DNA from: a virus
Strand: one strand, 5' to 3'
IMG/VR virus record: IMGVR_UViG_3300025326_000086
Span: 1-42,274 of that record
DNA: 42,274 nt
Shown: positions 1,765 through 41,074 of the stretch, one piece after another
Numbering within the stretch: the first letter of the stretch is position 1
Layout of the letters: every line of letters begins with the position of its first letter
Notes under the pieces: model-generated
Told to the model about the DNA's origin: nothing
Seen by the model: the letters and a program-made list of their open reading frames with translations, nothing else
Database searches by the model: none
Position numbers and translations under genes: made by a program

Positions 1765-1953
1765 ATGAAAAGAATCAAACTAAAAAATACGCCTCTCTGG
1801 CTAAGTAAAAACGCTCTTTCAAAAACGAACCCATACCAGAAAATGCTTTTGATTATTGGTGGATTTTTGATAGACATTGCTTTTAGATCAATGGGATTGG
1901 GAAAATGGATATTAAGACCAGAGAAAGAAATAACTAAAGGAAAGGGAATATGA
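1765..1953 (+). CDS. Small hypothetical protein with hydrophobic centre
   Basis: 62 residues with an AAAGGAAAG ribosome-binding site directly upstream. The middle (about residues 27-42, LLIIGGFLIDIAF) is hydrophobic and could be a short membrane segment; both ends are basic. The stop overlaps the RNA ligase start as ATGA. It has no counterpart after the second copy of the block. No family recognised. Confidence 0.7.
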   Translation: MKRIKLKNTPLWLSKNALSKTNPYQKMLLIIGGFLIDIAFRSMGLGKWILRPEKEITKGKGI

Positions 1954-6692: not shown

Positions 6693-6992
6693 ATGCCAAA
6701 AGAATGGGTGTGGGTAATAAACCCCCACGGAGTTAGAGTAGAAGTTGACGCTGAGAGAATTCCCGAACTCAAGAAAAAGGGATATTCTGTGGTTGATCCG
6801 AACGACTCAGTTGCTATTCCAGGAAAACAGTTGCCAGTAAAATCGGCTCCAACGATTAGCACTGAAGTGAAGCCTGATCTTTCAATGGGTAGAAGCAGAT
6901 TAAATAAAATGGCGATCGAAGCTGGAGTGCCAAACCCCAAAAAGCTTTCGAGCAAACAGGCGGTGATCGACGCGATCAATGCAAATAGGTAG
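6693..6992 (+). CDS. Hypothetical protein with N-terminal 'NPHGVRVEV' module and SAP-like tail
   Basis: 99 residues; AAAGGCC precedes the ATG. Residues 9-36 (INPHGVRVEVDAERIPEL then GYSVV) match in pattern the N-terminus of the glycosyltransferase that follows (RNAHGMIVEIPESELE, then GFELV), suggesting a shared small beta-domain. The C-terminal 30 residues (LNKMAIEAGVPNPKKLSSKQAVIDAI) look like a SAP-type helix-extended-loop-helix motif, often nucleic-acid binding. It overlaps the next gene by 14 nt. A structural or adaptor role is possible; nothing is shown. Confidence 0.72.
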   Translation: MPKEWVWVINPHGVRVEVDAERIPELKKKGYSVVDPNDSVAIPGKQLPVKSAPTISTEVKPDLSMGRSRLNKMAIEAGVPNPKKLSSKQAVIDAINANR

Positions 6993-8109
6993 CGCGGCCG
7001 CCCTGGTTCGCAATGCTCATGGAATGATCGTTGAAATTCCAGAGTCAGAGCTTGAGTTAACCCTAAAAATTCCAGGGTTTGAGTTGGTTCGTGGTAAGCG
7101 AAGCCTTGCCAAAGGATATAAAAGCCTTGAGGAAGTGCCCTGGATGTTTCCACCCCTGACTGGCTACAGGCTAGACGGATATGGGCGTATTAACGAGTTC
7201 ATAAACGACAATTTTGTTTCGACTCAAAAGGCTGAGGCAACTTTAAGCCTGGGGGGATTACGCCATGTGACTAAACCACACGACAAATATATCCACGTTT
7301 TACTGACAATGTTTGAAGCGGATAGAATACCAGACCAATGGGTTCAGGTTTGTAATGAATGTTTTGACCACCTTTTAATTCCCTCAGATTGGTGCATCAG
7401 TGTTTTTACCGAGAGCGGGGTAACAACCCCAATGCACAAACTTCCGCTGTTTGCTACTGATTTCAAAATTTACAGGCCAGAGACTAAGCCTTTCGTATTT
7501 GGACACCAAAATGCCCTGGTAGAAGGGGCGCAGAAGGGTTGGGATTTGGTCATTAGAGCGTTCCTAACCCTGTACAAAGGAAACCCAGACGTCAAATTAT
7601 TACTCAAGGCCAGAGAACACGACTGGGCTAACGACAGGTGGTATTACGAAGAGTTGCGCAAAATTTCAAACATCGAGCTGATTGTTGGTGATTTTTCCTA
7701 TGCAGAACTACAAGAAAAGTTCTTTTCCAGAGTTAATTGCTTTGTTTATCCTTCTAGGGGCGAAGGCTGGGGCTTGCCTCCGCTTGAGGCAATGGCGCAC
7801 GGCATCCCAACTATTTTGACCGACGCTCACTCGCACACAGAGTTTTCAAAATACGGCATCCCGATTGGCGTCACAGGCGGGTCTTTTAGTTTTTATGCTG
7901 GCCGAGTCAAAGAGGTTGGAACTGGTTACTGGGTCGAGCCTAGGTTTGATGAATTGGTTAAAACAATGAGCTGGGTGTACAGAAATTACGAACCAGCAAA
8001 AGCCCTAGCAGTTCAGCGAGTGCCACAGCTAAAGAAGAAATTTAGTGGTGAAAAATTCGTCAAGAACCTAAAAAAAATTATGGGGGAAATATGCGTATCA
8101 TCTGGATAG
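6979..8109 (+). CDS. Glycosyltransferase, GT4/GT-B type, with extra N-terminal module
   Basis: 376 residues. The C-terminal half has the GT4 donor-site signature RGEGWGLPPLEAMAHGIPTI (about residues 260-279), with the E-x7-E glutamates, and upstream VEGAQKGWDLVIRAF and NIELIVGDFSYAEL as in other GT-B enzymes. Residues 1-40 are a short module shared with the gene before it. It presumably transfers a sugar from a nucleotide-sugar to phage DNA, a virion protein or a host surface glycan; the acceptor cannot be told. The second glycosyltransferase and a methyltransferase follow in the same overlapping gene chain. Confidence 0.88.
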   Translation: MQIGSAAALVRNAHGMIVEIPESELELTLKIPGFELVRGKRSLAKGYKSLEEVPWMFPPLTGYRLDGYGRINEFINDNFVSTQKAEATLSLGGLRHVTKPHDKYIHVLLTMFEADRIPDQWVQVCNECFDHLLIPSDWCISVFTESGVTTPMHKLPLFATDFKIYRPETKPFVFGHQNALVEGAQKGWDLVIRAFLTLYKGNPDVKLLLKAREHDWANDRWYYEELRKISNIELIVGDFSYAELQEKFFSRVNCFVYPSRGEGWGLPPLEAMAHGIPTILTDAHSHTEFSKYGIPIGVTGGSFSFYAGRVKEVGTGYWVEPRFDELVKTMSWVYRNYEPAKALAVQRVPQLKKKFSGEKFVKNLKKIMGEICVSSG

Positions 8110-8948
8110 CCGACTACACCATCAAAGACTATTTGGGTGGCGCTCAAATCACCAACTTGGAAATGATTACTGCTGGGGAAAAACGAGGTCATAAGATTAT
8201 TCAGATTAACCATAAAGAAATAGACGCATTTAAGTTCAGGAAAACAGATCGAGTCGTCTTGAATAATATGGCTATACTCAATCGAGATCACCACGATAAA
8301 TTGATGAGGGTTATTCTCAACACCCGATTTGTGCGCTACATCCACGATTATGATTGGGTTTACAACGACATGCACGTCAGTACCATTTCGGGTATGTTCA
8401 AAAAAGCCAAGGGTATTATTTTCCTTTCGCCCCTTCAGGCTTTAATTACCCGCGACAAGTTCGTTGTCCGAGACAGCGTTATTATTCCCTCGCCAGTTGA
8501 TACCAAGAAATTTTACAATCAACACCAGCCAAGAAAAAAGAACTCGGCCCTTTACACTGGCGAAATCAACACCCACAAGGGCATTAACCACCTGTATAAC
8601 TGGGCATTATTCCACCCAGAAATTCAGCTTGATTTGTACGGCTGGATTGCTCACCCAGGCCTAACAAGCTTGCTTCCGCACAACGTCAAGATAATTGAAA
8701 AATTACCCCACGCTGATATTACCCAGACTCTCAATCAATACGAAAAGTTTGTGCACTTGCCGATCTGGAGAGAGCCTTTCGGTCGAGCGGCCGCGGAAGC
8801 TTACTTGTGTGGTTGTAAGCTTGTGACCAACGGCAAGGTGGGCTTTCAATCGTTCGACTGGGATTACAAAGATCCCAAAGCTATTGCCGATGAAATTGCC
8901 AAAGCTCCAGACAGATTTTGGGATTATGTTGAGGAAAAATTAGCATGA
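8091..8948 (+). CDS. Glycosyltransferase, GT4-like (second)
   Basis: 285 residues, short for GT-B. It has an N-terminal Rossmann-like start (MRIIWIADYTIKDYLGGAQ), SALYTGEINTHKGINHL around residues 152-168, and the donor-site block WREPFGRAAAEAYLCGCKLV (226-245). The N-terminal acceptor domain is reduced. It overlaps the previous gene by 19 nt, so the pair are probably made together and may act in sequence on one acceptor. Not a frameshifted part of its neighbour, as both have their own donor-site motif. Confidence 0.85.
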   Translation: MRIIWIADYTIKDYLGGAQITNLEMITAGEKRGHKIIQINHKEIDAFKFRKTDRVVLNNMAILNRDHHDKLMRVILNTRFVRYIHDYDWVYNDMHVSTISGMFKKAKGIIFLSPLQALITRDKFVVRDSVIIPSPVDTKKFYNQHQPRKKNSALYTGEINTHKGINHLYNWALFHPEIQLDLYGWIAHPGLTSLLPHNVKIIEKLPHADITQTLNQYEKFVHLPIWREPFGRAAAEAYLCGCKLVTNGKVGFQSFDWDYKDPKAIADEIAKAPDRFWDYVEEKLA

Positions 8949-9211
8949 CCAAATTAAAATGCCTAAACTGCAAGCATGAATTCAAGGTAGCGGGAGAGCG
9001 AGCTTACAGTAAGTGTCCCAAGTGTGATGGCGATGCTTATTTTCTTGCCTCAAGTTTGCATGACAACTCCCCACAAAAAGTTGTTCAGCGCCCAGAAAAA
9101 GGCACAGAGCGCTGGTATAATGAAAAGTGGTACAGACGAAGCGATAAAGACTGGCATGAGGACATTCAAAGACGGGTACAAAACCCAGATGGTTCAATAA
9201 CCAGACGATGA
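8945..9211 (+). CDS. Small zinc-ribbon protein
   Basis: 88 residues. CLNC near the N-terminus and CPKC about 18 residues later form a standard two-knuckle zinc ribbon (rubredoxin/FmdB-like). The rest is polar and Trp/Arg-rich (RWYNEKWYRRSDKDWHEDIQ) with no recognised domain. ATGA overlaps on both sides place it between the second glycosyltransferase and the methyltransferase. Confidence 0.78.
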   Translation: MTKLKCLNCKHEFKVAGERAYSKCPKCDGDAYFLASSLHDNSPQKVVQRPEKGTERWYNEKWYRRSDKDWHEDIQRRVQNPDGSITRR

Positions 9212-9792
9212 TTACCAAACAACAGATTAAAGATTTCTACACCACCGAAGGCAGTATCCCCAGCACCACTCAAGAACGGGTTTACTCAAAAGCTACTTCC
9301 AGAAAAAGAAAACGTGCCGTGGAGAAAATGTTAGCCAAAGAAAAAGTAGTCAGTTTCCTCGAGATTGGTTGTGCTGAGGGGATGTACTGCGAGTTTATGC
9401 TCAAATATGCCGAGCGAATTACAGGCATGGATATTTCCCTGCCCAAAATAAACAGAGCTGGTAGCGCTAACAAAATTAGGTACATCGAAGGCGATTGGGA
9501 CGCTATTCCTTTTAGCAACGGGGGCTTTGATTTAATCCTGGCAAGCGAATGTTTGGAACATTCTCTTGATCCAAGCCATGTAGTTAAAGAAGTTTTTAGG
9601 GTTGCACATCGAGCGATATTCAGCGTTCCAATTAAAGAACCGAAATTGGCCGATCCTATGCACCACCACACTGGCCATATCCACGCTTTCAGACCCGATA
9701 CTTTCAAAGAGCTCTTCAAAGATTATAAAATAAACGACGAATACCTGGACGAAGAGACTGGGTTCATGGTCTTGGAAGTAATAAACAAATGA
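9208..9792 (+). CDS. Class I SAM-dependent methyltransferase
   Basis: 194 residues. Motif I is FLEIGCAEGMYCEFML (about 50-65), the acidic residue of motif II is in ITGMDIS, the post-motif is GDWDAIPFSNGGFDLILASECLEH, and a His-rich stretch (MHHHTGHIHAF) follows near 150-160. This is the Methyltransf_11/UbiE-like pattern found beside glycosyltransferases, where such enzymes modify sugars or lipids; the substrate here is unknown. It is part of the glycosylation-type cassette 6979-9792. Confidence 0.87.
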   Translation: MITKQQIKDFYTTEGSIPSTTQERVYSKATSRKRKRAVEKMLAKEKVVSFLEIGCAEGMYCEFMLKYAERITGMDISLPKINRAGSANKIRYIEGDWDAIPFSNGGFDLILASECLEHSLDPSHVVKEVFRVAHRAIFSVPIKEPKLADPMHHHTGHIHAFRPDTFKELFKDYKINDEYLDEETGFMVLEVINK

Positions 9793-20949: not shown

Positions 20950-23900
20950 TTACTTGGGTGTAAAGACTGGGAAATTGCTGGCCTTTTTTTGAAACTCTGA
21001 GGCCAAGTTCTCGATCTGCCTTTGGATGGCTTCGATCTTTTTTTGCTTCTCTCTCTCGGTGAGCGACTGGTCTTGGGCGGTTTTTCTGAGTTTAGACCGC
21101 AAATCTGACATCTGGAACTGGAACGACTTACTTTGAGAGTTAATGCCCGCTTCCAAATCAACTGGCTGGATTTTAAGACCCAACCCAACGTCCAACATAG
21201 TTGTGGGTAAATCACGAAGCCGACCCTGGTAATCTGGCTTTTTGAATAAAGCAGAGTAAAGTTTGTCCCAAGAATAACCACCGCGCAGATAAGCGTCATT
21301 CATCCCCATCGGATCTTGAACGGCTTGTGTGCCAGGAGCAAAGCTTGGAGCAAGGACTCGGTAAATATAATTGACAATTTTACGCATTTTGTCAGCCTCA
21401 GTGTCGGTAGATTCGTCCCAAAGGGGCTGTTTGGTGAAAGGATCGGTGTTAGTGCCAATTGCTGTTGGAATGACATAAGCAGGGTTTGAGGGCAAACCAA
21501 AAGTGGTCTGTAACTCCCCAAGGTCGCCCCAGGGCAAAAGGTAAGCAAGGTTCAAGTAGGCTGACTGCTTTTTAACCGAGCCGTCCTTCATTTTTATATC
21601 AATGTTAAAGGGTAGTCTGACATAAGCACCGTTTTTAATGTAGTCTGGCAGAGCCTCTTCTTCGTCTTTGCGCGCGTCACCTTCAATATTTCGGAACAAT
21701 TTATAGTATTTGCTCACAGCTGTTGGTCTTTTGACCGCCGCTTCAACAAATCTAGGAATTGCCTTATACGAGAAAGTAATGAAGGGAAAGCCAAATGGCA
21801 CATCCCGAAGGAACCTAACCGCCTCTGGAATGTCTGAGTAGTCAAAAAGCCACTTATTTGCATAGGCCGCCGCTTTTTGAACGCTGTCCCCAGCCTCTCG
21901 CCTCCAAACATACATAGCCATCTTGTCGGTTTCCTCGATTGCTCGATATGTTTGACCAGATTTTTCAACAACCCCCTTGATTATTCTTGAAAAAACATTG
22001 CCCTTGGGGTTTGAAGCGAAAGCACTAAGAAAGTCTTTGATTTCAGTGGCGTAGTAGGTTGTTGCTAGCAAACCAGCTTTTTGCGCTTCTTGATAAAACT
22101 TTCCTTTTGTCCTGTACTCAGTAAGCCCCTTGGTGAAATATTTGATTCCCTTTGGGGAATAAATTGGCAAACCACCAAGATCCATCAGGGCAAAGTTTGA
22201 AAGGGCGTTACGACCCTGAGCGGCGGGGTTAAGAATGACCTTCCCCACTTTCCAAGAACTAAGAAGTTTTTTGTAAAGCTGACCCAGCGGGCCAATACCA
22301 ATACCAGTAGCTCCTTTAATGTCTGAGGCAATGGAGGCAGGGACAAATTTCCCAGAGAGCAATCCAAGTCTTTTCTCAACTGGAAGCCTAACGTATGAGC
22401 CTGGGATTTTGGTGGCTGTATCAGCCCCAACAGCGAAGTGTTCTGACACCCAACGGAAGAATTTAGCTTCTTCGAGAACATTGGAAATATCGACTGATCC
22501 CTGAGCGGCAATAAAGCCAGCATCACGAATAGCTCCCATTTCTCGGCGAACTGCCTCTGGAATTTCTTTACGAGTAATCAGCCGATCCCAGACGATTTTC
22601 TCTGAGCGCTTACCCAATAAAAAGTTCATCAAGCCTTTTTTGTCGTTCACATACCTGAGGAAATACTCTGGAGCGTAAGTGCCAAGGTTATTAATAATCG
22701 TTTCAATTTGTTTACTAGCTTCTGGGATTGATTGACCAATTTCTTTAGCTAGTTCCCTAGAGAGATCATCAAGGTTGGTGCGCATTAGAGTGGCGGCCTG
22801 GCGAAGTGGCTCTTCAACCTGAGCAACTGATTTTGAGCCAGTAGCAATTTCCCAGATTCTTCCCGCCGCATCTTTGGCTAATTTGGCCTCAGTTTTACTC
22901 ATTGGGCCAGACTTCTTGAAAACAGCGGCGGCATATTCCTTGGCGTAAACATTGATCTTTTCGCCTAACTGAATGGCCTTATTAACCGCCTCACTTCGAG
23001 TAAACTGCATCATAGCCTTTTTGCTCTTATAGCCCTCTGGCAAGCTTGAAGCGCCCTTGGCGATCCAAGAGCCAAACAGGTTGGTATCAGCTAAACGCTC
23101 TGTTGCTAGCTTAAAGGTGGATTTGCCCGCTTTTGTGATGGCTTTAATCTGCTCTAGTGATTCTCTGATGGCTGGTGTACCAGTTAAGGGTCTGGCAACT
23201 TCCTGGGTCTGTCTGGTAATAGTAGAAATAATTGAGCGTAAATTTTTGGTCGCTTCTTTTTTAAGAGCTACGATTTGAGCCGAAACGTCTTTGGATGGTA
23301 AGACAAAGCTTGAGCCAAATGGCTTAGAAACGGTTTGGGGAACTCGCTCAACAGCTCGGCTAGTAGTGCCAAGTTTTACCTCTTTAATGGGAGTTCTTAC
23401 TGTCGTTCTGGAAAGTGGTTGTTCAATTGCCTCCACATCTTCAAAAACCTTTTTAATTGTTCTGGATTTTTTGGCAATGTTTGACGGGCCAACTGGTACC
23501 TTAATCGGCCCAGTCTGCAAAGCCAATGGCTCTCTTTTATTTCTCAAAAGGTCAATGATATTTTCTGGGCTTTTAGCTGGAGCGATGTCACTAAGCCTAC
23601 CTAAAGCGCTGGATTGCTCAACAAAGTCATCAATAATTGATTCAGCTCGCCATTGAGCCTCGGTTGGGAGTAGTCTGGTTAGCGCTTTAGCCTGGTCATA
23701 ATTACCAGCCTTAAACAAATCAAGCACGTCGGCTAAAACTGCTTTTTTAGTTGCTATGTCCTTAATTCCAACAATTTTGTCTAAGCGCTCAAAAACGCTT
23801 TTGCCGCCGCCTTGAGCAACATCTTCCAAAACTTCCCTAGAAAGCGGGTTCTTAGCTAAATTAGCTGAGGTTTTCAATTCCGCTTCCGTTAAACTCCTGC

Positions 23901-24426
23901 CCGCGGCCGACTCACGAAGTCCCTTGGTGGCTTCATCGCCGAATTTACCAAAAAGCTTACCAGCTCCTTCAAATAAATTCTCAAGGGGATCAATTTTTCT
24001 AGCAACCCTGGTAATTTCTTCACCTGTTTTAACCAATTTAGCCGCTTGGCTTGCCTTACCAGCCTTTGAAACACCTTTACCAATCAAGCCGATACCAGGA
24101 AGAATGTTCAATGGATCAAGTAAAACGTCAGCGGCAAAACCGAATAATTTTCCCTTGAGTGAATCATCAATTTTCCCAGAAGCTCTAAGAGCCTCTGATG
24201 GAGTGGCCGTTTCCTTAATGCCCTGGATTGCGCCTTTGCCAGTCAATAAACCCGTAGCGGCGTACTGGGGGACTGAGAGAATATCACCAACATCTTGGAA
24301 AAAGCCACCTTTCAGAAAGTCGTTTTTGTCGGCAGTAGAAACAACCTTGGTCGGGCCACTCGCTTTTTTTTGCGTGGTTGAAGGAGCCTGAGCTTTCGCT
24401 AGTACGTCTGAGCTAAATAATGTCAT
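20950..24426 (-). CDS. Very large virion-associated protein (possible ejection protein)
   Basis: 1158 residues, the longest gene here. The N-terminal 130 residues have glycine-rich hydrophobic helices (LFGFAADVLLDPLNILPGIGLIGKGVSKAG) like membrane-active or ejection-type proteins. The middle is helical. From about 735, VILNPAAQGRNALSNFALMDLGG and the following helices to RFLRDVPFGFPFITFSYKAIPRFVEA match a module I know from very large phage polyproteins (RN-x-x-SN motif). The C-terminus is a coiled coil. Position between portal-side proteins and scaffold suggests it is packaged in the capsid and enters the cell with DNA. No lytic enzyme motif seen. Confidence 0.7.
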   Translation of the reverse strand: MTLFSSDVLAKAQAPSTTQKKASGPTKVVSTADKNDFLKGGFFQDVGDILSVPQYAATGLLTGKGAIQGIKETATPSEALRASGKIDDSLKGKLFGFAADVLLDPLNILPGIGLIGKGVSKAGKASQAAKLVKTGEEITRVARKIDPLENLFEGAGKLFGKFGDEATKGLRESAAGRSLTEAELKTSANLAKNPLSREVLEDVAQGGGKSVFERLDKIVGIKDIATKKAVLADVLDLFKAGNYDQAKALTRLLPTEAQWRAESIIDDFVEQSSALGRLSDIAPAKSPENIIDLLRNKREPLALQTGPIKVPVGPSNIAKKSRTIKKVFEDVEAIEQPLSRTTVRTPIKEVKLGTTSRAVERVPQTVSKPFGSSFVLPSKDVSAQIVALKKEATKNLRSIISTITRQTQEVARPLTGTPAIRESLEQIKAITKAGKSTFKLATERLADTNLFGSWIAKGASSLPEGYKSKKAMMQFTRSEAVNKAIQLGEKINVYAKEYAAAVFKKSGPMSKTEAKLAKDAAGRIWEIATGSKSVAQVEEPLRQAATLMRTNLDDLSRELAKEIGQSIPEASKQIETIINNLGTYAPEYFLRYVNDKKGLMNFLLGKRSEKIVWDRLITRKEIPEAVRREMGAIRDAGFIAAQGSVDISNVLEEAKFFRWVSEHFAVGADTATKIPGSYVRLPVEKRLGLLSGKFVPASIASDIKGATGIGIGPLGQLYKKLLSSWKVGKVILNPAAQGRNALSNFALMDLGGLPIYSPKGIKYFTKGLTEYRTKGKFYQEAQKAGLLATTYYATEIKDFLSAFASNPKGNVFSRIIKGVVEKSGQTYRAIEETDKMAMYVWRREAGDSVQKAAAYANKWLFDYSDIPEAVRFLRDVPFGFPFITFSYKAIPRFVEAAVKRPTAVSKYYKLFRNIEGDARKDEEEALPDYIKNGAYVRLPFNIDIKMKDGSVKKQSAYLNLAYLLPWGDLGELQTTFGLPSNPAYVIPTAIGTNTDPFTKQPLWDESTDTEADKMRKIVNYIYRVLAPSFAPGTQAVQDPMGMNDAYLRGGYSWDKLYSALFKKPDYQGRLRDLPTTMLDVGLGLKIQPVDLEAGINSQSKSFQFQMSDLRSKLRKTAQDQSLTEREKQKKIEAIQRQIENLASEFQKKASNFPVFTPK

Positions 24427-24432
24427 GTGTCC

Positions 24433-26463
24433 TTATTTGAACAAGCCCACGAACTTGTTGAAAAGGCCAGAAACAGTGTCTTTGGCCTTTTGGAAGAACG
24501 AGGGCTGGCTTGAAGCCGCCGTGGTTTTGGGAATATTAAACGAGGTGCCTAAGTCTGGAATACCTGAGGTGTCAATACTGCTTGACGTGCTGGGGATCGT
24601 GGGTTGAGGCAAGTTGAAGTTGAATTTTAATTGAGGAATCTCTGGAATGGAGAGATCTGGAAGATTGACTGGCTGGCTGACAACCTCGCCACCAGCACCA
24701 AAAGTCGGGAAAGTTGGGCCAGAAAGCTTAACGTCTTTCCCTGCCAAGGATTTTTGCAAAGAAGAAGCACTTAAATCGCCAGATGCACCAGCCGAAAGTG
24801 GGGCTTCAGTTGGTTTTTTAGCCAATTGAACATCACGACCAATCTCGGAAGCTTTGAAAGTAACTGGTTTTAGAACCTGACCAGATTGAGTTACATTGCC
24901 TTCTGCATCAATCGCAAGGTTTTGTCCCTGAAGGGCTTTGGTTAGGTTCTGCCTGGCGGCTTCACCTTGACCCATGCCTAGATCAAGTTTGGTTGGATCT
25001 GGGAAAAGAGAAACGCCAGTAAACGACTGGAATAATTTATCAAAAGAGGAAGCTGAATTGAGCGCCTCGCCTGTTGCCTGGTCAAATACTGGGGCTTGAA
25101 TTTTTGGAATTTCGTTAGCCGTTACAGGTTGCTCGCTGTTATTGAGAACCTTGAAAATATCGGGCTTGCTGGTCATTAAATCCATTCTTGAAGGGATTGA
25201 AGTTAAATTAACTGGAATTTCGTTACCATTAGCGTCTTTGTCAAAGATCGTAAATGACCCGTTTTCTTCACGACGAGCACGCACCTTTTCCATTTCACCA
25301 TTGGGATTGCGAATAACCGCAGTAAAAGAAGTGTCAAGGCCAAGTTCTTTGGCTCGATTAAGGGCGGCCTGGCGAGTCGATAGGGCTGAAGACCCCTCAA
25401 CTACGTTTCCATTTTGATCGACCACTTCCCACAAACCAGTAGCAGAGTTTTGCTGGACTGGTTCGGCCATGAAATCAACATTTTGACCAGTGAAAGGATC
25501 TTTGCCGTCGATTGTGACAGTTTTCACTGAGCCGTCCTTGGAAATTACGTCAAAAACCTGCCCGTTATTGTAGGCTTCGATTAAAATTTTAGCGCTGTTG
25601 AGCATGTTCCTGGCATTTTGTAGGGCTTCCTCTTGGACATTAACCCCTTGTTGAGCCAAACTAACCAGTTCGTCATAAATTCTTTGAGCTGAATCAAACT
25701 GGGCTTCTACTCTAGTTAAACCATCGATTTCGCCAAGTTTATGAGCCTGAACGATAGTGTCCTGGTTGGCTAGTTCGTCGGCTAGAAAGAACGAAAATTC
25801 GTTTTGCAAACCAGTAGTATTGCCAGTTTGAGTAGCGCTAATAGCCTGGGCTTCTTGCTGGACTAACTGCCGATAAATCTTGCTTTCTGGATTAGCAACT
25901 GTTTTTAACTCACGAATAATAGCCAGCTCTTCCTGGGAGGTAATCCCGCCAGCCATGTATTGCTCAAACAAATCTGCTCGGCGCTGTTCAACTAACTCTA
26001 CTTGAGCGTTTTCAAACGAGTTGATGATATTTTGTTGTTGTTTGGTGTACTCAGACGTGCCTGGTTTTTCAAAGGCAAGCATTTCCGATTCAATCCTGTA
26101 ACGATCCTGCTCACTAATCAGCCCGTCGGCCGAGGCATATTTAGATTCTAATTCGGTGCGTTTCCCTTCTCGCTGGCGTCCACGTTCCACGTCCTGCAAT
26201 TTAACTAGGGTTTTCAAGGCATCAGCGCCTTCTGAGGTATTTTGCCCAACTTCTTCAACATAATCATTTACGAAATTCTTAAATTCATCAAAACTAATCG
26301 CTCCGTCGTCGTAAGCCGTAACCATGTTATTAAACCTGGCAACCCGTTCGTTCTTGATTGCCGACTGAAAAGTTGAAGCAAAGCTGGCGGCTACCCCCTC
26401 GTAGGTGGGCGCGGCCTGGATTCTTGAGCTGGAGCGTGATGGTCGTCTTGTAACTACTGCCAT
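24433..26463 (-). CDS. Large virion-associated protein, neighbour of portal
   Basis: 676 residues from ATG 26463, chosen because AGG lies 7 nt upstream and the longer form (26496) begins inside the portal gene. Residues about 15-260 are helical and charged, with repeated EF-hand-like turns (YDDGAISFDEFKNFV; ASADGLISEQDRYRIE; YMAGGITSQEELAII), each a D/G-turn followed by a helix. A beta part follows (about 310-440: GSVKTVTIDGKDPFTGQNVDF), then a disordered Pro/Ser-rich end. It is probably an internal virion protein made with the 1158-residue protein. Confidence 0.68.
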   Translation of the reverse strand: MAVVTRRPSRSSSRIQAAPTYEGVAASFASTFQSAIKNERVARFNNMVTAYDDGAISFDEFKNFVNDYVEEVGQNTSEGADALKTLVKLQDVERGRQREGKRTELESKYASADGLISEQDRYRIESEMLAFEKPGTSEYTKQQQNIINSFENAQVELVEQRRADLFEQYMAGGITSQEELAIIRELKTVANPESKIYRQLVQQEAQAISATQTGNTTGLQNEFSFFLADELANQDTIVQAHKLGEIDGLTRVEAQFDSAQRIYDELVSLAQQGVNVQEEALQNARNMLNSAKILIEAYNNGQVFDVISKDGSVKTVTIDGKDPFTGQNVDFMAEPVQQNSATGLWEVVDQNGNVVEGSSALSTRQAALNRAKELGLDTSFTAVIRNPNGEMEKVRARREENGSFTIFDKDANGNEIPVNLTSIPSRMDLMTSKPDIFKVLNNSEQPVTANEIPKIQAPVFDQATGEALNSASSFDKLFQSFTGVSLFPDPTKLDLGMGQGEAARQNLTKALQGQNLAIDAEGNVTQSGQVLKPVTFKASEIGRDVQLAKKPTEAPLSAGASGDLSASSLQKSLAGKDVKLSGPTFPTFGAGGEVVSQPVNLPDLSIPEIPQLKFNFNLPQPTIPSTSSSIDTSGIPDLGTSFNIPKTTAASSQPSFFQKAKDTVSGLFNKFVGLFK

Positions 26464-26464
26464 A

Positions 26465-28309
26465 TTAACCTGCCACTGGCGGCAAAACTGTGCCACCAGT
26501 TGAATTAGGATTTACTGCTTCTCGAGCGGTTTCTGGGGTAGGTCGTTGTTCTTCTGGTAAAGGATTGGTGGCGGATAAAGCCAAATTATTGGCATTAGCG
26601 TTGTCAGCTAAAGCTTGTTCACCTGGAGTGGGAGGAACTGGGGTTCCTGCTGGAACGGCAACTGGTTTCCCAATCTGCCCCCTCATTTTCTCAAGTTCAG
26701 CCGCGGAAGCCTCAAGCTTTTGACCAATTTCGGTCATTTGAGCTTTAGCTTTGACAATTTTCATCACCCTATCGGGCGACAAGTCAGCGTCGCCGCTCTC
26801 TTGCTTCAAATAATCAACTGTGGTGCTGGTTGCACCAAGATCAAGTAGGGCGTTGTAGCGATCAATAGCCTGGTGGAGTGAAGTTAAGTTGTTCTGCAAA
26901 CCAAGAGTGAGGTTTTGGATCTCACGGGCAACATCAACTGGCAAGTTGTCAGAGAAAATAACCTCAATTTGGTAGGTTTCAATACCCTCAATTTCGTAAG
27001 TTTGACCACCATCCAAGGGTACTTTGAAGGCTTCTGGGTTATTTTTCTTGAGGATTTTAATACCCATTTTAATAAGTTTTCTGATGGCAGTTTCCCAGTC
27101 AATTTGGCGCGATGTAACCGACAAAGTAGCGGGTTGCATGGACAATTTAGCCTGGAAGCCAGAGGTGACGTTATTGGGAAAGACGCCGCTAGCGGCCTTG
27201 GGCATTAGCGAAACGAAGTGGAAAAGATCAATTAAAAGCTCAACTTGGGCAATGAGCGGTTGAATTTGGGCTGGATTGCTTAAATATTCTAGTGCCTCGC
27301 CATTGTCAGAGCGCTTAACTGGGATTTTCTTGCCACGGATTTTCCCCAGTGATTTGCCGCTAAGGGCTTTATTATACTCAAGCAAGGGGGGATAACCAAC
27401 GTCGCGAGCAATTTCGCTAACAGCCGACAGTAGGGCATTTATTTCCTGACAAATTTGTTTCCAGCGCTTGATCTCAGAACTACCATTAACATCATTAACT
27501 AGGCGGCTATTATCAATCGTAACCAGCGGCACAAAACCAAGGCCGTGTTCCTGGCGATCAATTTCCATGCCATTGGCAACTGTGACAACGTACTCTCGGT
27601 CATATTTGCGAAAAACTGAAGTCATGCCGTCGTCAAAAACAGTAATACTTTTGGGCAAAACTCGAACTTCGGAGTCTGGAACGACATCGGCGCCATACAT
27701 GCGCTTGACTGATTCTGGGCGCATGCGCTTCCAAGTGACAAAACATTCAATATCATCGTAGTCGCTGGAACTGTAAACCACCCTGGTTGTAAATGGGTTA
27801 AGGGCAGAAATATCGAAAGAACCTTTAGGGCCACCCTCTTTTTTCTCTTTGTTCCAAAACGGGAAAAGATGGGTGTGACCAAGCATAAAATATTGACGAG
27901 CAGAGTCTTTGAATTTTTTGCGAAACTCAGCGTCAAAAAGCATTTTGTTAGCCAATGTTTCCCCATAGTCCGAAATTGCCTGATCGACTTGGTTGGTGGT
28001 GGGTGGGCGCCACTGAACCTGAGGCATGGTGTTGGTGAGCATGTAGGTGTAAAGATCAATGACGGTGGCGCCAAGATTAAAGACAAGCTTGACGTTGCCT
28101 TCTGGTTCTCCAGTCCACTGTTCGGAAATATCGCCGTCGTAAAACGATCGGTCTTGACTCATGCGATTAAAAAGCTGGGAATATTGGGTTTCAACGGAAT
28201 CCCAAATGTCAATAACTTCTTGGCCGCTGGTTCTTAGTTGGTAAGCGTATTCTTGTTCTTTGCGCTCCAAAACACTTAGGGCTTTTGGATCGTACGGTTG
28301 AGCTGGCAT
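26465..28309 (-). CDS. Portal protein
   Basis: 614 residues. Typical portal features: RSFYDGD, VKLVFNLGATVIDLYTYMLTNTMPQVQWRPP near 70-105, the WKQICQEINALLSAVSEIARDVGYPPLL crown/stem segment, and a C-terminal helical region with DYLKQESGDADLSPDRVMKIVKAKA. It forms the dodecameric DNA entry channel (family knowledge). It lies directly downstream of the large terminase, and its Pro-rich tail (last 60 residues) is disordered. Confidence 0.9.
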   Translation of the reverse strand: MPAQPYDPKALSVLERKEQEYAYQLRTSGQEVIDIWDSVETQYSQLFNRMSQDRSFYDGDISEQWTGEPEGNVKLVFNLGATVIDLYTYMLTNTMPQVQWRPPTTNQVDQAISDYGETLANKMLFDAEFRKKFKDSARQYFMLGHTHLFPFWNKEKKEGGPKGSFDISALNPFTTRVVYSSSDYDDIECFVTWKRMRPESVKRMYGADVVPDSEVRVLPKSITVFDDGMTSVFRKYDREYVVTVANGMEIDRQEHGLGFVPLVTIDNSRLVNDVNGSSEIKRWKQICQEINALLSAVSEIARDVGYPPLLEYNKALSGKSLGKIRGKKIPVKRSDNGEALEYLSNPAQIQPLIAQVELLIDLFHFVSLMPKAASGVFPNNVTSGFQAKLSMQPATLSVTSRQIDWETAIRKLIKMGIKILKKNNPEAFKVPLDGGQTYEIEGIETYQIEVIFSDNLPVDVAREIQNLTLGLQNNLTSLHQAIDRYNALLDLGATSTTVDYLKQESGDADLSPDRVMKIVKAKAQMTEIGQKLEASAAELEKMRGQIGKPVAVPAGTPVPPTPGEQALADNANANNLALSATNPLPEEQRPTPETAREAVNPNSTGGTVLPPVAG

Positions 28310-34860: not shown

Positions 34861-35288
34861 TGAGCTACACACCTCATCGCAAAATTGCCGACGCGATTAG
34901 ATCGCTTGTGCCGTTTAAAGGGAATAGCTCTTGGGCGGTCAGATCGACGGGGGCCGCAAAATCGTCTTACTCTGTTTGGAGCTATTCGACCAAGATATTC
35001 GAGATCTTTTTTGACACTAACGGCAATAAAACTTTAATAGAATTTAATAACAGCGCCTATAGCAGAACGACCAGCAAATTGCAGAATTTAATCATCAATA
35101 GCGTCTTGGCTAGTCCCGCCTCCCCGCATCTGGTTAAATGGTTGCCTTCCTATCGGCGCGATAATGCGCTTTACATCTGGGACAGTCAAGGAAAAATTGT
35201 TAGTAAAGACGATATATCAGAAGAAGACCAAGAGGAAAAAGTGCCAGACAGCCGAGTAATAATTATTCCAGTGGAGCAAATCTTATGA
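34860..35288 (+). CDS. Hypothetical protein ending in PVEQIL
   Basis: 142 residues. Beta-rich first half (SSWAVRSTGAAKSSYSVWSYSTKIFEIFFDTNGN), helical middle, acidic linker. It ends IIIPVEQIL, similar to the IEQEL tails of the three ORFs at 5742-6524. No family recognised. It overlaps the next tiny membrane protein by 4 nt. Confidence 0.72.
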   Translation: MSYTPHRKIADAIRSLVPFKGNSSWAVRSTGAAKSSYSVWSYSTKIFEIFFDTNGNKTLIEFNNSAYSRTTSKLQNLIINSVLASPASPHLVKWLPSYRRDNALYIWDSQGKIVSKDDISEEDQEEKVPDSRVIIIPVEQIL

Positions 35289-35407
35289 CCAAAAAGTTTG
35301 AAACTTTAATTGCCAGCTTACTATCGGCAATCCATAACCCTATTTTGTGGTTTGGTTTGCTGATCTTATATGGGATTATTCGAGTAGTAATAAGTAATAA
35401 AAACTAG
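35285..35407 (+). CDS. Tiny membrane protein (40 residues), upstream flank of the MoxR/VWA pair
   Basis: Hand-translated: ATGA overlap with the stop before, GGAG 9 nt upstream, TAG at 35405-35407. One membrane segment (about 17-36, HNPILWFGLLILYGIIRVVI) with a lysine-rich N-terminus. Its length and layout (short charged head, H-x-P, then L-rich segment) match the tiny protein at 38131 on the other side of the ATPase/VWA pair, and they may be distant paralogues. Confidence 0.65.
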   Translation: MTKKFETLIASLLSAIHNPILWFGLLILYGIIRVVISNKN

Positions 35408-35422
35408 CCAGAGAAGGGCACA

Positions 35423-36619
35423 ATGCCAGCAAAAAGATCGGCCGTCAAAGCGGCTAAAACCAGTAGTAAAAAATTCGTCAAGTTCGGCGGCCTTCAAATT
35501 CCAATGTGGGAAGGCAAGCATCACCCGCTAATTCCAGAATTCGGCGCTGAGATCTGGTATCCAAAAGAACAGATGAAGGCAATCGCCACGGCTTTACTTG
35601 GTAATATCTCGACGTTACTGATTGGCGAAACTGGCACTGGCAAAACCAGCCTAATTCGCCAGATCGCGTACTTGCGCCAACAGCCTTACGTTCGGGTTAA
35701 TTTGCACGGCTACACCAGCCCTGATGAATTGATCGGGAGCAAGTCGGCGGCCAATGGGAGCACGTTTTTTGAAGACGGGGTAATAATCCAAGCAATGCGT
35801 ATGGGCGCTATTCTAGTGGTTGATGAGTTAAATGCCGCGACCCCCGATTGTATGTTTATTTTTCACGCCTTACTGGACGACGAGCGCAAAATTACCTTGC
35901 CAACGGGTGAGGTTGTTAGACCGCATCCTGAATTTCGTTTTTTTGCGACGATGAACCCTGATTATGAGGGCACCAAGTCGATCAATCGGGCTTTTCTCGA
36001 TAGGTTTGGCGTTGTTATCGACGTGGAAACCCTAGCGCCAGCCCTGGAAGAAAAGTATTTAATGCAAAAGGGCGCTAGTAAAGAGGACGCTAACAATATG
36101 GTGTTATTCGCAAGCGCTTATAGAGCCGCTTACCGCGACGGCAAGACTCTGACTTTTTGCTCGACTAGAACCTTATTGCAATGGCTTGATCTTATCCAGC
36201 GGGGGTTTGCTATGGAAAAAGCTTTTTTGTTTGCGGTTCTAGGCAAGTCGCGTGCTGAGGAAAAGCAAGCAATGGCCGATGTATTCGAGGCACAAGTTAA
36301 AAAGAACCTGAAACTCACCAGCCGCGACAAGTTGGTGGTGGTTAAAAAGTCGGAGCTAACTAAGGCCGAGAAGATTGCAACAGATATGCAAAACAAGGCT
36401 AGCGACTTGGCGATCGAACTTGATCGAGCCAAGGCCCACGCTCAAGCTCAAAACAACTCCAGAGCGCAAGCCGTGGCTGAGCGCGACCAGTTACAGACTG
36501 CTATTACTGAGCTAACCAGTAAAATGGAGAGCTTTACACAGTTAAAGCGGGTGCTAAAAAAACTTAAAGACGAAGGTATTATCGACGCCAAATCAAAGGA
36601 AGACGAAAACCCGTTCTAA
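35423..36619 (+). CDS. MoxR/CobS-like AAA+ ATPase
   Basis: 398 residues. Walker A GETGTGKTS (68-76, K74), pore-loop area VNLHGYTSPDELIG, Walker B ILVVDELNA (130-138, D134/E135), sensor 1 in FFATMNPD (N178), arginine finger near FLDRFG (R194) and a lid domain to about 290. From about 310 a long coiled coil extends to the end. MoxR-type ATPases act as chaperones that insert metals or remodel complexes together with a von Willebrand A partner, which is encoded 2 nt downstream. In this phage the target is unknown. AGAAGG upstream. Confidence 0.9.
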   Translation: MPAKRSAVKAAKTSSKKFVKFGGLQIPMWEGKHHPLIPEFGAEIWYPKEQMKAIATALLGNISTLLIGETGTGKTSLIRQIAYLRQQPYVRVNLHGYTSPDELIGSKSAANGSTFFEDGVIIQAMRMGAILVVDELNAATPDCMFIFHALLDDERKITLPTGEVVRPHPEFRFFATMNPDYEGTKSINRAFLDRFGVVIDVETLAPALEEKYLMQKGASKEDANNMVLFASAYRAAYRDGKTLTFCSTRTLLQWLDLIQRGFAMEKAFLFAVLGKSRAEEKQAMADVFEAQVKKNLKLTSRDKLVVVKKSELTKAEKIATDMQNKASDLAIELDRAKAHAQAQNNSRAQAVAERDQLQTAITELTSKMESFTQLKRVLKKLKDEGIIDAKSKEDENPF

Positions 36620-36620
36620 T

Positions 36621-38129
36621 ATGCTAACAGCCAATCGCGAATATATCGAAATAGTGGTGGCCTCACTCTCAGGAACGACGGGCGTTAAAGTTGCCGAGGG
36701 TGAGCGCTGGGCGCTTAATATGGACGACAAGACACTTATTTATAACCCCGTCGATCTAATCGAGCGCCCGTTCTATCAGATCAGGGGGCTAGTCTTGCAC
36801 GAAATGGGGCACTTAATGTTTACCCAGACTGTGCCTGGTAGTAAATTATTTAATCAATATCCCAGATTAGAAGAGGCGTATAACGTCGCGGAAGACCAGC
36901 GAATTGAAACAAAGCTTTTCGCCCAATTCGGTCAATTCGCCCGTGAGAGCATATCGGCGCTTAATATCGACGTAATTGCTAAAACTTTTGCACCCGCCAA
37001 TTTAGCCCAAAATGACCCGCTACGCCAAGCGCTTTTAATGATAGCTTTTTTACTTGAAGAGCGCAAAAACTACGAACTGAGCCACTATGAATTCGATCTT
37101 GCAAAAAACGCCCTGCACAAAGACGCCCTAGAGGCAATCCTGGCTATTGAGAGGCAGGGTTCGAGTATACTTGATGATTGGTGGGTTACTATTCGCGACG
37201 CCAAATCGTTCGGGGAAATCCAAGCCTTTGTAGATGCTAAAGTTTTTCCGTTTATTGAAAAGTTATTAAAAAATAATCCCAAAAAATCAGATCAGGGCGA
37301 CGAAGAGGGCAAGGGCAAAAGCCAGTACAGTAAAAACAGGGCGGGCGCTAAACCAGGTCAAGCCCAAGTAACAATCCAAAGTGATACGTCGGGCGGGCTA
37401 AAGGCTGGCACGGGTAGCTCCCCCGATCGGGCAATTCCAATCCCCGATTATAAGTCGGCCAGCGCTCTAATGAGGCCGTTTTCCGACACCCTAGCCAATC
37501 GCTTACTGGACGTCTTAAAAGAAAAAAAAGCCGTCACTCACTCAGGATTATATAAGCGGGGGAAATTACTAAGCCGCAATATCACCAAGCTAATGACCAA
37601 TGAAGAGCGGATGTTCTCTAGACGCAATAATCCCGATACACCAGACTATAAAGTTTACGTTGTTATTGACCGCTCAGGTTCTATGGACGAAGAGCAAAAA
37701 ATATCTTACGCTTATCTAGCGGGGGTTATGGTTTACGACACGGCGCTCAAGATGAAGATGCCCGTTGAAGTGGTATCGTTTAATGAAGATGTGGAATACA
37801 TCGCCGACAATCAGAATAGGACGCCAGATTTTGAACAGTTTAGCACCAGCGGCGGCACTGACGACGCAAATATGGTTCGTGAACTAGCAGACAAAGTCAA
37901 AAAAGATCAAGAGGAAACCCTGGTTTTTATTATCGGCGACGGGGAAGGTACGAGTTTACCTTCCGCTAGCCTAGCTTACTTGCAAAAAAAGGGTTTTCTA
38001 ATGGGGATAGGCGTTGGGGAGGGCACGGAGCGGGTCGCTGAAGCCTATCCAAATGGGGTGACTGTAGCCTCACCAAAGGACGTGCCAAAAGTAATAATTC
38101 AAACCCTGCGCGGGTTAATCAAAAGGTAA
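36621..38129 (+). CDS. HExxH plus von Willebrand A (CobT-like) partner of the AAA+ ATPase
   Basis: 502 residues. N-terminal zincin-like region: GLVLHEMGHLMF with H60-E61-x-x-H64 and then NVAEDQRIE (87-95), the 'EDxRIE' block that regularly follows HExxH in VWA-linked metallopeptidase-like domains. The middle (about 215-275) is a disordered Lys/Gly/Ser linker. The VWA domain has a complete MIDAS: DRSGS (348-352), T411 in SGGTDD, and D438 in IIGDGEG. It likely binds Mg2+ and a partner in a MoxR-driven cycle; whether the zincin cleaves is unknown. Confidence 0.9.
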   Translation: MLTANREYIEIVVASLSGTTGVKVAEGERWALNMDDKTLIYNPVDLIERPFYQIRGLVLHEMGHLMFTQTVPGSKLFNQYPRLEEAYNVAEDQRIETKLFAQFGQFARESISALNIDVIAKTFAPANLAQNDPLRQALLMIAFLLEERKNYELSHYEFDLAKNALHKDALEAILAIERQGSSILDDWWVTIRDAKSFGEIQAFVDAKVFPFIEKLLKNNPKKSDQGDEEGKGKSQYSKNRAGAKPGQAQVTIQSDTSGGLKAGTGSSPDRAIPIPDYKSASALMRPFSDTLANRLLDVLKEKKAVTHSGLYKRGKLLSRNITKLMTNEERMFSRRNNPDTPDYKVYVVIDRSGSMDEEQKISYAYLAGVMVYDTALKMKMPVEVVSFNEDVEYIADNQNRTPDFEQFSTSGGTDDANMVRELADKVKKDQEETLVFIIGDGEGTSLPSASLAYLQKKGFLMGIGVGEGTERVAEAYPNGVTVASPKDVPKVIIQTLRGLIKR

Positions 38130-38130
38130 T

Positions 38131-38253
38131 ATGCTGGAAAAACTAGAAATTATTTTAACGATTGCTGTATATATGCTAAGACACCCTAAAATTTTACTGG
38201 CTTATTTACTGCTATTATGGGAGGGCGACAAAATTAAAATCAACCTAAAATGA
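38131..38253 (+). CDS. Tiny membrane protein (40 residues), downstream flank of the pair
   Basis: Hand-translated: ATG one base after the VWA stop, AAAGG upstream; TGA overlaps the next ATG (ATGA). It has a hydrophobic stretch at about 7-14 and a second at 19-30 (HPKILLAYLLLLWEG), ending in a basic KIKINLK. Same size and similar H-P-x-x-L-L layout as 35285-35407. It may anchor the VWA protein at the membrane (inferred). Confidence 0.62.
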   Translation: MLEKLEIILTIAVYMLRHPKILLAYLLLLWEGDKIKINLK

Positions 38254-38462
38254 GAAAAATAAAAATATATTTAATTAGCGCCTATGTTTTTTTAAGTCTT
38301 TGCGTAGCACTCACTATTTTTATTTTTGGCGAAACTAAAAGGGAGGTTGCGCGTTTTGAAGAGCGCCAGGAATATGTTTTGCGGGAGCTTGGCGAAATGT
38401 GTGCTAGAGGAGCTTATCGCATAGGATACGACGGGGAAAATTTTTATGCACTCTGCAAATAA
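38250..38462 (+). CDS. Small membrane-anchored protein
   Basis: 70 residues. N-terminal membrane segment (about 6-27, YLISAYVFLSLCVALTIFIFG), then a charged helix (ETKREVARFEERQEYVLRELGEMC) and a small end domain (YRIGYDGENFYALCK). Resembles Rz/spanin-like or Cox-like small phage membrane proteins in layout only. Overlaps both neighbours. Confidence 0.7.
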   Translation: MRKIKIYLISAYVFLSLCVALTIFIFGETKREVARFEERQEYVLRELGEMCARGAYRIGYDGENFYALCK

Positions 38463-38728: not shown

Positions 38729-38965
38729 ATGAGAAGTCGATTAAAAATAATCCACGAACTAGAAGCCAAAGATATGTTGGAGCGCTATGTAAGTGGCGAT
38801 CCCCTACCTGAGATTGCACAGGCTCACGGCATTGAAAGCCCCAAAAACGTCTATTACTACATTAACAAGTATCAGGGTCATATTACCGACGAACAACGGA
38901 TTAAGAGGTATAAGGCGACTCTGAAGCGCAAGCGAGAGGCGGATGTAGCAACGAAAGACTTTTAA
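38729..38965 (+). CDS. Small HTH DNA-binding protein, likely autoregulator
   Basis: 78 residues. KDMLERYVSGDPLPEIAQAHGIESPKNVYYYINKY (about 15-50) forms an HTH in which LPEIAQAHGI is helix 2 and the turn and PKNVYYYINKY the recognition helix. The C-terminus is basic (KRYKATLKRKREADVATK). GGAG lies 7 nt before the ATG. It directly follows a promoter with a palindrome in its spacer, suggesting self-control and possibly control of the duplicated block downstream. Confidence 0.75.
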   Translation: MRSRLKIIHELEAKDMLERYVSGDPLPEIAQAHGIESPKNVYYYINKYQGHITDEQRIKRYKATLKRKREADVATKDF

Positions 38966-39126
38966 TGAATTTAACCAGAGCAATGAGGGCTTTATTCATC
39001 ACAATGGCGTTTCTAGGAATACTTTTTATTGTTATTGGTTTGGTTAAATTGATAAGGGAGGTAGCGCAATCCAGATGTAACCAAAGTCCGTGCGTAACAA
39101 GAACCATAATTTTGAAAGGCGAATAA
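38965..39126 (+). CDS. Small membrane protein (53 residues)
   Basis: Hand-translated: TAATG overlap at both ends (ATG 38965; TAA 39124-39126 overlaps ATG 39126). One membrane segment (about 9-29, ALFITMAFLGILFIVIGLVKL), then a short end with two Cys (CNQSPC). It fills the apparent gap between the HTH gene and block A. Function unknown. Confidence 0.68.
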   Translation: MNLTRAMRALFITMAFLGILFIVIGLVKLIREVAQSRCNQSPCVTRTIILKGE

Positions 39127-39929
39127 TGACTGACCAAACTAAACCAGAAGCAAAAACCACCAAAGAGATAACAGAAGCCGATGCCAGAGTTATCGCCAAA
39201 GCTCTGACTTTAATTGAAAACGATACGACTGGTGCAATTGTAATGCCAGCGGTGGACGCCGCCGCCGCAATAGAAGCCTGGAAAAGCTATCAAGATCTTA
39301 AAAAAGCGGTGATTTCCCCAGATGACGTGCAACAAATCCAGGGTCGGCAATTTTTGAAAAAGTCTTACTGGCGCAAGATTGCCACATTTTTTAATTTGTC
39401 GGTTGATTTAGTAACTGAAAAAAAGGAGGAACTGGCCAATGGCAACACCACCTACCACTTTGTCTGCAAAGCAACCGCCCCCAATGGTCGATTTGCTGTT
39501 GGAGCTGGCAGTTGTAATATCTACGAAAAGGCGAAATTTGATGTTGAAAAAGGCCAGTGGCTTAACTCTTATGGAAAAATTGCTGAACCCAATAGTATTC
39601 ACAATGCTCGGGCTACTGCTGAAACTCGCGCTTGGAATAGGGCTGTTAGCAACCTTGTGGGAGGTGGCGAAGTATCAGCCGAAGAGGTAGAGGCAATCAA
39701 AGACGGTAAATCAGAGGAAGTTGATACTACCCCAGATCCAACCGATGAATGGGAAAATCCCACGACCAAAACATACACCCCCCGACCTCGACCAGCAAAA
39801 GGTTCTCAGGAAACCTGCGCAGTCGATCACTCAAAGCTAGTTATTTTAACAGTTAAAAAAGAGGGTAAAAACAAGGGTCGAACTTTTCGAGCCTGTCAAA
39901 AGTGTGACTTCTTTCACTGGGAGTCATAG
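39126..39929 (+). CDS. Annealing-like protein with GRF-type zinc finger (copy 2 of A)
   Basis: 267 residues from ATG 39126 (TAATG overlap; same start as the paralogue at 32). Residues 60-185 and the GRF-like finger (C-A-V-D-H, then KNKGRTFRACQKC and FHW) are nearly identical to copy 1, with long identical DNA runs (for example near 39600-39655 against 489-545), while the linker (about 190-220) has diverged and is shorter. Both copies keep all cysteines and open frames, so both are probably in use. Single-strand annealing or ssDNA binding is inferred from motifs and neighbours. Confidence 0.9.
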   Translation: MTDQTKPEAKTTKEITEADARVIAKALTLIENDTTGAIVMPAVDAAAAIEAWKSYQDLKKAVISPDDVQQIQGRQFLKKSYWRKIATFFNLSVDLVTEKKEELANGNTTYHFVCKATAPNGRFAVGAGSCNIYEKAKFDVEKGQWLNSYGKIAEPNSIHNARATAETRAWNRAVSNLVGGGEVSAEEVEAIKDGKSEEVDTTPDPTDEWENPTTKTYTPRPRPAKGSQETCAVDHSKLVILTVKKEGKNKGRTFRACQKCDFFHWES

Positions 39930-40487: not shown

Positions 40488-40793
40488 ATGAAAAAACAAA
40501 ACGCAGGGCATTTAATCGGAGCGCACCTAGGGGTAGATCACAAAAAACTGGTGATTATCGAACAGCAATTACTTGATTGGTTGGCGACTGAATTTTTTGA
40601 CGACACTAAAATTGAGGGCTGTGAGTGCGACATTATCAGAAAAACCATTGAGCTGTGCAAAGAAACTTGCACGACCGAAGAACTGGCAACGGCCATTTAC
40701 GTTGCTGGTAACAGGATTGGCGACCTTGTGGAGCGCGCCCTCGAGAAACGACACAATATGCAGATGAGTAATAAAAAAGAGGAGGTAAATTGA
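40488..40793 (+). CDS. Conserved small protein, copy 2 of B
   Basis: 101 residues, clear paralogue of 861-1172: HLGVDHKKLVIIE, LATEFFDDTKIEGCECDII, ELCKETCTTEELATA match block by block; the Cys pattern (CEC, C, C) is kept. The stop overlaps the next start by 4 nt, where copy 1 has one base. Unknown function. Confidence 0.87.
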   Translation: MKKQNAGHLIGAHLGVDHKKLVIIEQQLLDWLATEFFDDTKIEGCECDIIRKTIELCKETCTTEELATAIYVAGNRIGDLVERALEKRHNMQMSNKKEEVN

Positions 40794-41074
40794 TGCAATT
40801 ATTTATCTTAGTGTTTGAGTTTGCGGTTTTAATTTTACTAATAGGATTAACGCACAGAACTTTAATGGTAGCTGATTATCGAAGAAAAATTATTTGGAAA
40901 ATAATTGAGTTGAGTGTGAACGAAGGCGTCCACGGTAATAAAATGAGCCTGTCTAAAGCCAGGTGGTCGGCCTATCGCAAGGTTTCGTTTGACAAAATGC
41001 TTTATCAAGCTTGGAAACCACTGAGCGAGTTTTATAAAGGGAGGGATTTTAATATCAAGGGGAAAGAAAAATGA
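40790..41074 (+). CDS. Small membrane-anchored protein, copy 2 of C
   Basis: 94 residues, paralogue of 1172-1477. The membrane segment (LFILVFEFAVLILLIGLTH) has a different sequence but the same place; DYRRKIIWKIIELSVNEG and KVSFDKMLYQAWKPL are kept. So the soluble tail, not the anchor, is under constraint. Function unknown. Confidence 0.85.
   Translation: MMQLFILVFEFAVLILLIGLTHRTLMVADYRRKIIWKIIELSVNEGVHGNKMSLSKARWSAYRKVSFDKMLYQAWKPLSEFYKGRDFNIKGKEK

Follow-up and report, generated by a model that had tools for sequence, protein, structure and literature searches.

What does a virus do with a MoxR-type AAA+ ATPase whose gene lies directly beside that of a metallopeptidase-like VWA protein? 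The question is raised by the virus record IMGVR_UViG_3300025326_000086 (42,274 bases, 44% GC), the whole of which was analysed and is called the window here. Its minus strand carries the structural and lysis genes at about 10-30 kb, including those for terminase, portal, Dit and amidase, and its plus-strand arm (31-42 kb) carries the AAA+ and VWA open reading frames (ORFs), separated by one base. We found that these two genes represent a divergent version of a gene pair that is widespread among viruses and is annotated elsewhere as CobS/CobT, 'porphyrin biosynthesis' or 'peptidase'. With moderate confidence, we regard the pair as a two-component ATP-driven zincin machine, that is, a metalloprotease, and not as a part of B12 synthesis. 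The features on which this reading is built are the following.

35423..36619, plus strand: MoxR/CobS-type AAA+ ATPase, 398 aa (AAA_5, phrog_249 and PDB CobS 9ujv matches)
36621..38129, plus strand: VWA-partner ORF, 502 aa (motifs, models and sub-threshold VWA matches)
36621..37271, plus strand: zincin-like N-terminal domain, residues 1-217 of the VWA protein (model, selecase profile, Foldseek)
36798..36812, plus strand: HEMGH motif, residues 60-64 (HExxH in 72/72 complete partners)
36891..36908, plus strand: EDQRIE motif, residues 91-96, candidate third zinc ligand (E91 and E96 invariant)
37284..37433, plus strand: flexible low-confidence linker, residues 222-271 (pLDDT, the predicted local distance difference test, <50)
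37449..38126, plus strand: AAA+-coupled VWA region, residues 277-502, with the metal ion-dependent adhesion site (MIDAS) (Foldseek matches to midasin and NorD; MIDAS invariant)

The ATPase and its zincin-like VWA partner

The 398-aa ORF contains a complete Walker A (GETGTGKT, 68-75), Walker B (DE, 134-135), sensor 1 (N178) and arginine finger (R194), as the initial annotation had claimed, and ends in a coiled-coil-like tail. These motif residues are invariant in the alignment of its relatives and, together with the match to Pfam AAA_5 (E 6e-29) and the VWA partner gene, place the protein in the MoxR AAA+ family. It also matches PHROG phrog_249 ('porphyrin biosynthesis', E 4e-46), the PDB structure of CobS (9ujv, E 1e-27) and the NCBIfam CobS model TIGR01650 (E 3e-27), the last with 95.7 bits, far below the cut-off of 558.55.

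The HEMGH, the EDQRIE and the full MIDAS (D350, S352, S354, T413 and D440) previously ascribed to the 502-residue protein could all be verified from its sequence. Since its Pfam matches are to VWA only and sub-threshold, the domain assignment required other evidence. The full-length model (pLDDT 77.6, predicted template modelling score (pTM) 0.60) begins with a zincin-like N-terminal domain, which bears the HExxH and, in the helix after it, two invariant glutamates; a disordered flexible linker then leads to the VWA domain at the C-terminus, whose MIDAS is complete. The model of the N-terminal domain (residues 1-225, 48 natural homologues; pLDDT 85.9, pTM 0.84) has zincin topology, in which a helix (6-20) and strands 23-26, 31-33 and 38-41 precede a helix (51-67) bearing H60-E61-H64, followed by a helix (83-103) bearing E91 and E96. 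This is the zincin/gluzincin layout of a small beta sheet and backing helix followed by an active-site helix with the HExxH, and E91 and E96 in the next helix are candidates for a glutamate as the third zinc ligand.

When a profile of 27 viral N-terminal domains was compared with 177,635 PDB sequences, it matched selecase, a minigluzincin, at E 3.9e-4 with the HExxH in register, and Wss1 and projannalysin more weakly. Foldseek ranked selecase and jannalysin first (probability up to 0.97, at a non-significant E of ~0.4), and the VIA Z scores were 6.4 for selecase and 6.2 for ArdC. The top rows of both structural searches are minigluzincins, along with ArdC and Spartan, and genuine CobT is not among the Foldseek matches listed. 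A zincin-type fold of the modelled domain is likely because the selecase profile and the Foldseek and VIA ranks agree, together with the invariant ligands. The closest folds or profile matches of this domain are the minigluzincins (selecase MJ1213, projannalysin), as well as Spartan, Wss1 and ArdC; unlike the window protein, none of these is coupled to an AAA+/VWA pair, and the zinc ligands of the window protein are putative.

The best PDB matches of the VWA domain in Foldseek are the MIDAS domain of midasin/Rea1, at E 1.4e-8, and then NorD from the NorQD complex, at E 1.4e-6; both are VWA domains acting on AAA+ rings. NorQ/NorD and midasin/Rea1 resemble the window pair in having an AAA+-coupled VWA domain with a MIDAS and a pore finger, but have no zincin domain. 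In NorQD, the VWA protein inserts a finger into the pore of the AAA+ ring, and its linker is twisted when ATP is hydrolysed (PMC13036017). The loop at about residues 303-341 of the window protein, which is conserved despite low model confidence and has G314, L316, L317, R330, F332 and S333 invariant among close relatives, may by analogy be such a pore finger.

The conserved unit and its surroundings

A viral scan with the AAA+ alignment gave 77 loci, forming 47 clusters at ~90% similarity; 72 have a complete VWA partner and five are cut by contig ends shortly past the AAA+ gene. Because loci entered the sample through their AAA+ gene, it is unbiased toward the zincin motif. In every locus not cut by a contig end (72/72) the partner ORF adjoins the AAA+ gene in the same order, and all 72 complete partners have the MIDAS as well as an HExxH followed, 22-37 residues on, by E[ED]xx[IVC]E. 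An HExxH within the first 150 residues has a chance probability of ~0.0035 per protein, and the motif residues are mostly invariant, so that its presence in all partners is not a matter of chance. H60, E61, H64, E91, E96 and the MIDAS are invariant in 26 partners with 15-33% identity to the window protein, and the HExxH is intact in 16 of 19 further lineages that were read. Loss of the HExxH or MIDAS in close relatives, which would have spoken against the initial annotation, was looked for and not seen. On the Methylobacterium plasmid pAMS5a (L166:1064-3492), two neighbouring genes encode the zincin part (346 aa, with HEVGH) and the VWA part (462 aa) separately, and the annotation of the former is that of a sigma-factor-like helix-turn-helix protein.

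To its counterparts in the five nearest relatives, the AAA+ protein of the window is 40-48% identical and the VWA protein 28-32%, and these are the only two genes that the window has in common with them (blastp, strong E-values). Likewise, when neighbouring genes are clustered, those of the AAA+ and VWA proteins alone form clusters that extend over the full set of loci; all other clusters are clade-specific, with up to 43 loci each and none containing the window. The conserved unit is therefore the two genes. A conserved third component was rejected by this clustering, and the suspicion that small, soluble and helical proteins encoded next to the pair form a family was not supported by hidden Markov models. 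Viral scans with each window protein singly revealed no close relatives. The relatives of the window terminase in IMG/VR (L167-L170; 56-100% identity) show that close kin of this phage exist in metagenomes; they lack the pair but, being fragments of 10-19 kb, are uninformative about it. Of the matches binned in cellular genomes, the nearest are one Woesearchaeota and one Staskawiczbacteria contig from metagenome-assembled genomes (MAGs; L091, L092), which may be misbinned viruses. Their neighbour genes match each other, and they are probably mobile elements or viruses that are related to one another and reside in hosts with tiny genomes.

Three small ORFs frame the pair in the window.

35285..35407, plus strand: upstream 40-aa membrane-type ORF (hydropathy 2.05; outside the conserved unit)
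38131..38253, plus strand: downstream 40-aa ORF, borderline hydrophobic (hydropathy 1.55; outside the conserved unit)
38250..38462, plus strand: 70-aa protein with one N-terminal hydrophobic segment (hydropathy 2.53; viral scan without relatives)

These ORFs are tightly coupled to their neighbours. The values given are the maxima over 19 residues, and they indicate clear hydrophobic segments in the first 40-mer and in the 70-mer, the latter in line with the anchored protein described before. The ORFs of the proposed tiny membrane proteins on both sides do exist, and the first is hydrophobic, but the second is borderline. The H-x-P likeness attributed to the two 40-mers did not hold, since the second reads R-H-P and the similarity of the two is not significant (block-shuffle p = 0.19). 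The tethered set of five genes had to be rejected as well, as the pair occurs without the tiny genes in 5/5 nearest relatives. The small membrane proteins lie outside the conserved unit and are not required components of it.

Further small membrane-type ORFs occur nearby at 38965-39126 and 40790-41074, and a 267-aa protein encoded just downstream of the small-gene cluster (39126-39929) has a GRF zinc finger at its C-terminus (PF06839, E 4e-7). Elsewhere in the window, an RNA ligase gene (phrog_548) adjoins a DNA methyltransferase gene (phrog_757) at 1950-3205; glycosyltransferase and methyltransferase genes flank an uncharacterised gene at 6979-9792, possibly as a surface or nucleotide modification cassette; and two minus-strand ORFs of 1158 and 687 aa beside the portal gene (20950-28309) have no PHROG match at E 0.01. 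A search for RNA families at 33-42 kb gave nothing convincing.

Function of the pair

In the machine that we propose, an AAA+ hexamer would hold the VWA domain through a finger that reaches into the hexamer pore, this domain would be pulled or twisted relative to the zincin domain as ATP is hydrolysed, and the zincin domain would cleave a specific protein bound at the MIDAS. A part of the virion is a less likely substrate than a protein, from host or phage, that acts in the early or replication phase, because many phages have the pair amid their replication genes and in the window it is remote from the structural ones. Replication genes neighbour it in SSU5, ICP2, P-SSM7, HTVC008M, Nican01, ANB28 and T5S1, and in the window and most named relatives that were read it stands outside the structural module, often beside polymerase, clamp, primase or ligase genes.

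Several points weigh against this proposal. Catalysis by the zincin-like domain and the protease activity of the pair are what we infer, and the replication-phase substrate is deduced from gene context only. The third zinc ligand is assigned from the invariance of E91 and E96 and not from coordinates, and the Foldseek E of ~0.4 and VIA Z of 6.4 or less for the N-terminal domain fall in a range attainable by chance or by a common arrangement. Moreover, the HExxH is missing in three SSU5-like lineages, where Nican01 has SEISK, an A. baumannii phage-plasmid QEVAK and ANB28 REVST, so that some pairs function without it.

These three SSU5-like phages or phage-plasmids (L162, L165, L174) have lost both histidines of the HExxH and kept the position of the glutamate. 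Such natural-loss lineages are a ready comparison set for catalytic dependence.

The same lineages, and cellular CobT, in which the domain likewise persists without an HExxH, are what one would expect if the pair were only a chaperone, with a zincin-like domain that is structural or binding, perhaps metal-bound but non-cutting, and that remodels a complex or inserts a metal like NorQD and CobST. Where their function is known, MoxR-VWA pairs act as chaperones or in metal insertion (PMC13036017; PMC9976466). A pure scaffold, however, would need none of the catalytic-type residues, and all of them, including the general-base residue E61, are kept in 72/72 sampled partners across deep divergence; we therefore consider a chaperone-only role rather unlikely.

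Processing of virion proteins was proposed for the same architecture in 2021, when group 2.2 jumbo phages were found to carry a MoxR-vWA pair that includes an N-terminal metallopeptidase and was suggested to serve virion assembly and processing (Iyer et al. 2021; PMC7824862), so that this kind of pair is already known. As in those tailed phages, the window has a MoxR-type AAA+ gene beside a vWA gene whose product is fused to a metallopeptidase-like N-terminal domain, as seen in the model and the selecase profile; the likeness is one of architecture as published, with ASV44729/ASV44728 taken by description. In Acidianus two-tailed virus, too, a viral MoxR-type ATPase, p618, forms part of the virion and binds p892, a VWA protein, and a role in tail development was concluded (PMC4124505); in contrast to the window, this pair lacks a peptidase domain (PMC7824862). 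The window is a 42-kb record and not a jumbo phage. That its pair would fold or process structural proteins in the same way is improbable, since the position outside the structural module, which most named relatives that were read share and which is often beside replication genes, does not favour virion assembly.

The pair was also read earlier as a membrane-tethered remodelling or proteolytic machine, perhaps directed at the host envelope or defence. Of this, the MoxR-type AAA+ protein with an HExxH/VWA partner has stood, with motifs and order conserved, and the membrane tether has not. A target in the envelope or in defence found no backing: the PADLOC defence-system models gave no convincing match, the third component and effector domain conserved in MoxR-vWA ternary conflict systems (VMAP, iSTAND etc.) were not found and the bpMoxR score of 23.1 bits is below the cut-off of 27, and the pair is often among replication genes.

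Finally, a viral CobST that borrows the CobN of the host and raises cobalamin production, as published for viral cobST (Liu et al. 2021; PMC8651126), would agree with the similarity of the AAA+ protein to CobS, but is very improbable here, because the VWA protein matches neither TIGR01651 (E 1e-3 or 0.1) nor PF06213 (not listed at E 0.1), the CobS score misses its cut-off, no CobN (PF02514) was found in the window record, five relative records and two pair-carrying MAGs, of which the viral records may be fragments and the MAGs incomplete, and the viral partners conserve a zincin site that is absent from all 41 cellular CobT sequences read.

CobT and the meaning of the viral pair

Viral versions of the pair have been published as CobST and as cobalamin auxiliary genes (PMC8651126; PMC9503304), and Liu et al. 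(2021) read the viral cobST of tailed phages and haloviruses as cobaltochelatase and called the 'peptidase' label a mistake. The viral cobST, including the 'peptidase' and CobS of cyanophages, is the same gene pair with the same two proteins as in the window, and the 'peptidase' of cyanophage P-SSM7 keeps HEVGH and EDARIE. This conserved zincin motif argues that the 'peptidase' label is right.

Aerobic cobaltochelatase CobS/CobT (TIGR01650/TIGR01651; PDB 9ujv, 9uka) likewise consists of an AAA+ protein and a VWA partner, and the C-terminal VWA domain and the second N-domain helix of CobT (..EQARVE) are recognisably related to those of the window protein. The CobT model has matches in 90 of 299 Pseudomonadota genomes, and in 79 its cut-off is passed. 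None of the 41 cellular CobT sequences that were read, nor any of five paralogues, has an HExxH at the homologous place: the cellular segment reads RGLGDSMALKRACHD...DAVEQARVE, against RGLLLHEIGH...NAFEDxRIE in the relatives of the window. SSU5 CobT bridges the two forms, as it matches PF06213 at 2e-37 and keeps HEVAH, and the link between the viral and CobT N-terminal domains relies mainly on this protein because the direct profile comparison is weak (hhalign, probability 23%, E 9e-4). Salmonella, the host of SSU5, makes B12 via the anaerobic chelatase CbiK and not via CobN.

In the VWA-domain tree, cellular CobT forms one clade (100/99) within a group (98/95) that contains SSU5, ICP2, pAMS5a, Nican01 and an Acinetobacter element, some of which keep the HExxH, and the HExxH label changes three times on this tree versus a shuffled mean of 14.5. 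Loss of the HExxH in CobT is the simplest reading of these sequence comparisons, although not a proven one because the tree is unrooted. We tentatively suggest that the viral 'cobST' is an ATP-driven zincin protease of bacterial and archaeal phages and phage-plasmids rather than a set of B12 genes, and that cellular CobT may have arisen from such a mobile lineage by losing the zinc site. In the open literature, our search, which covered subscription journals poorly, found no paper that joins the metallopeptidase-vWA pair to viral CobST or to loss in CobT. What is new here is the joining of the 'CobST' and 'metallopeptidase-VWA' literatures and the reading of CobT as a decayed zincin.

Records of phages and phage-plasmids that carry the pair number in the hundreds: the P-SSM7 'peptidase' has matches in 463 phage records, and SSU5 CobT in 970 plasmid records. 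The literature largely treats the pair as a B12 auxiliary gene. If the partner is a zincin protease, the B12 annotation would be misleading, and a common phage machine and its target would be opened to test. If CobT is indeed a decayed zincin, aerobic cobaltochelatase would in part originate from an AAA+ system that was once proteolytic and, after the loss of its cutting site, was turned to metal insertion.

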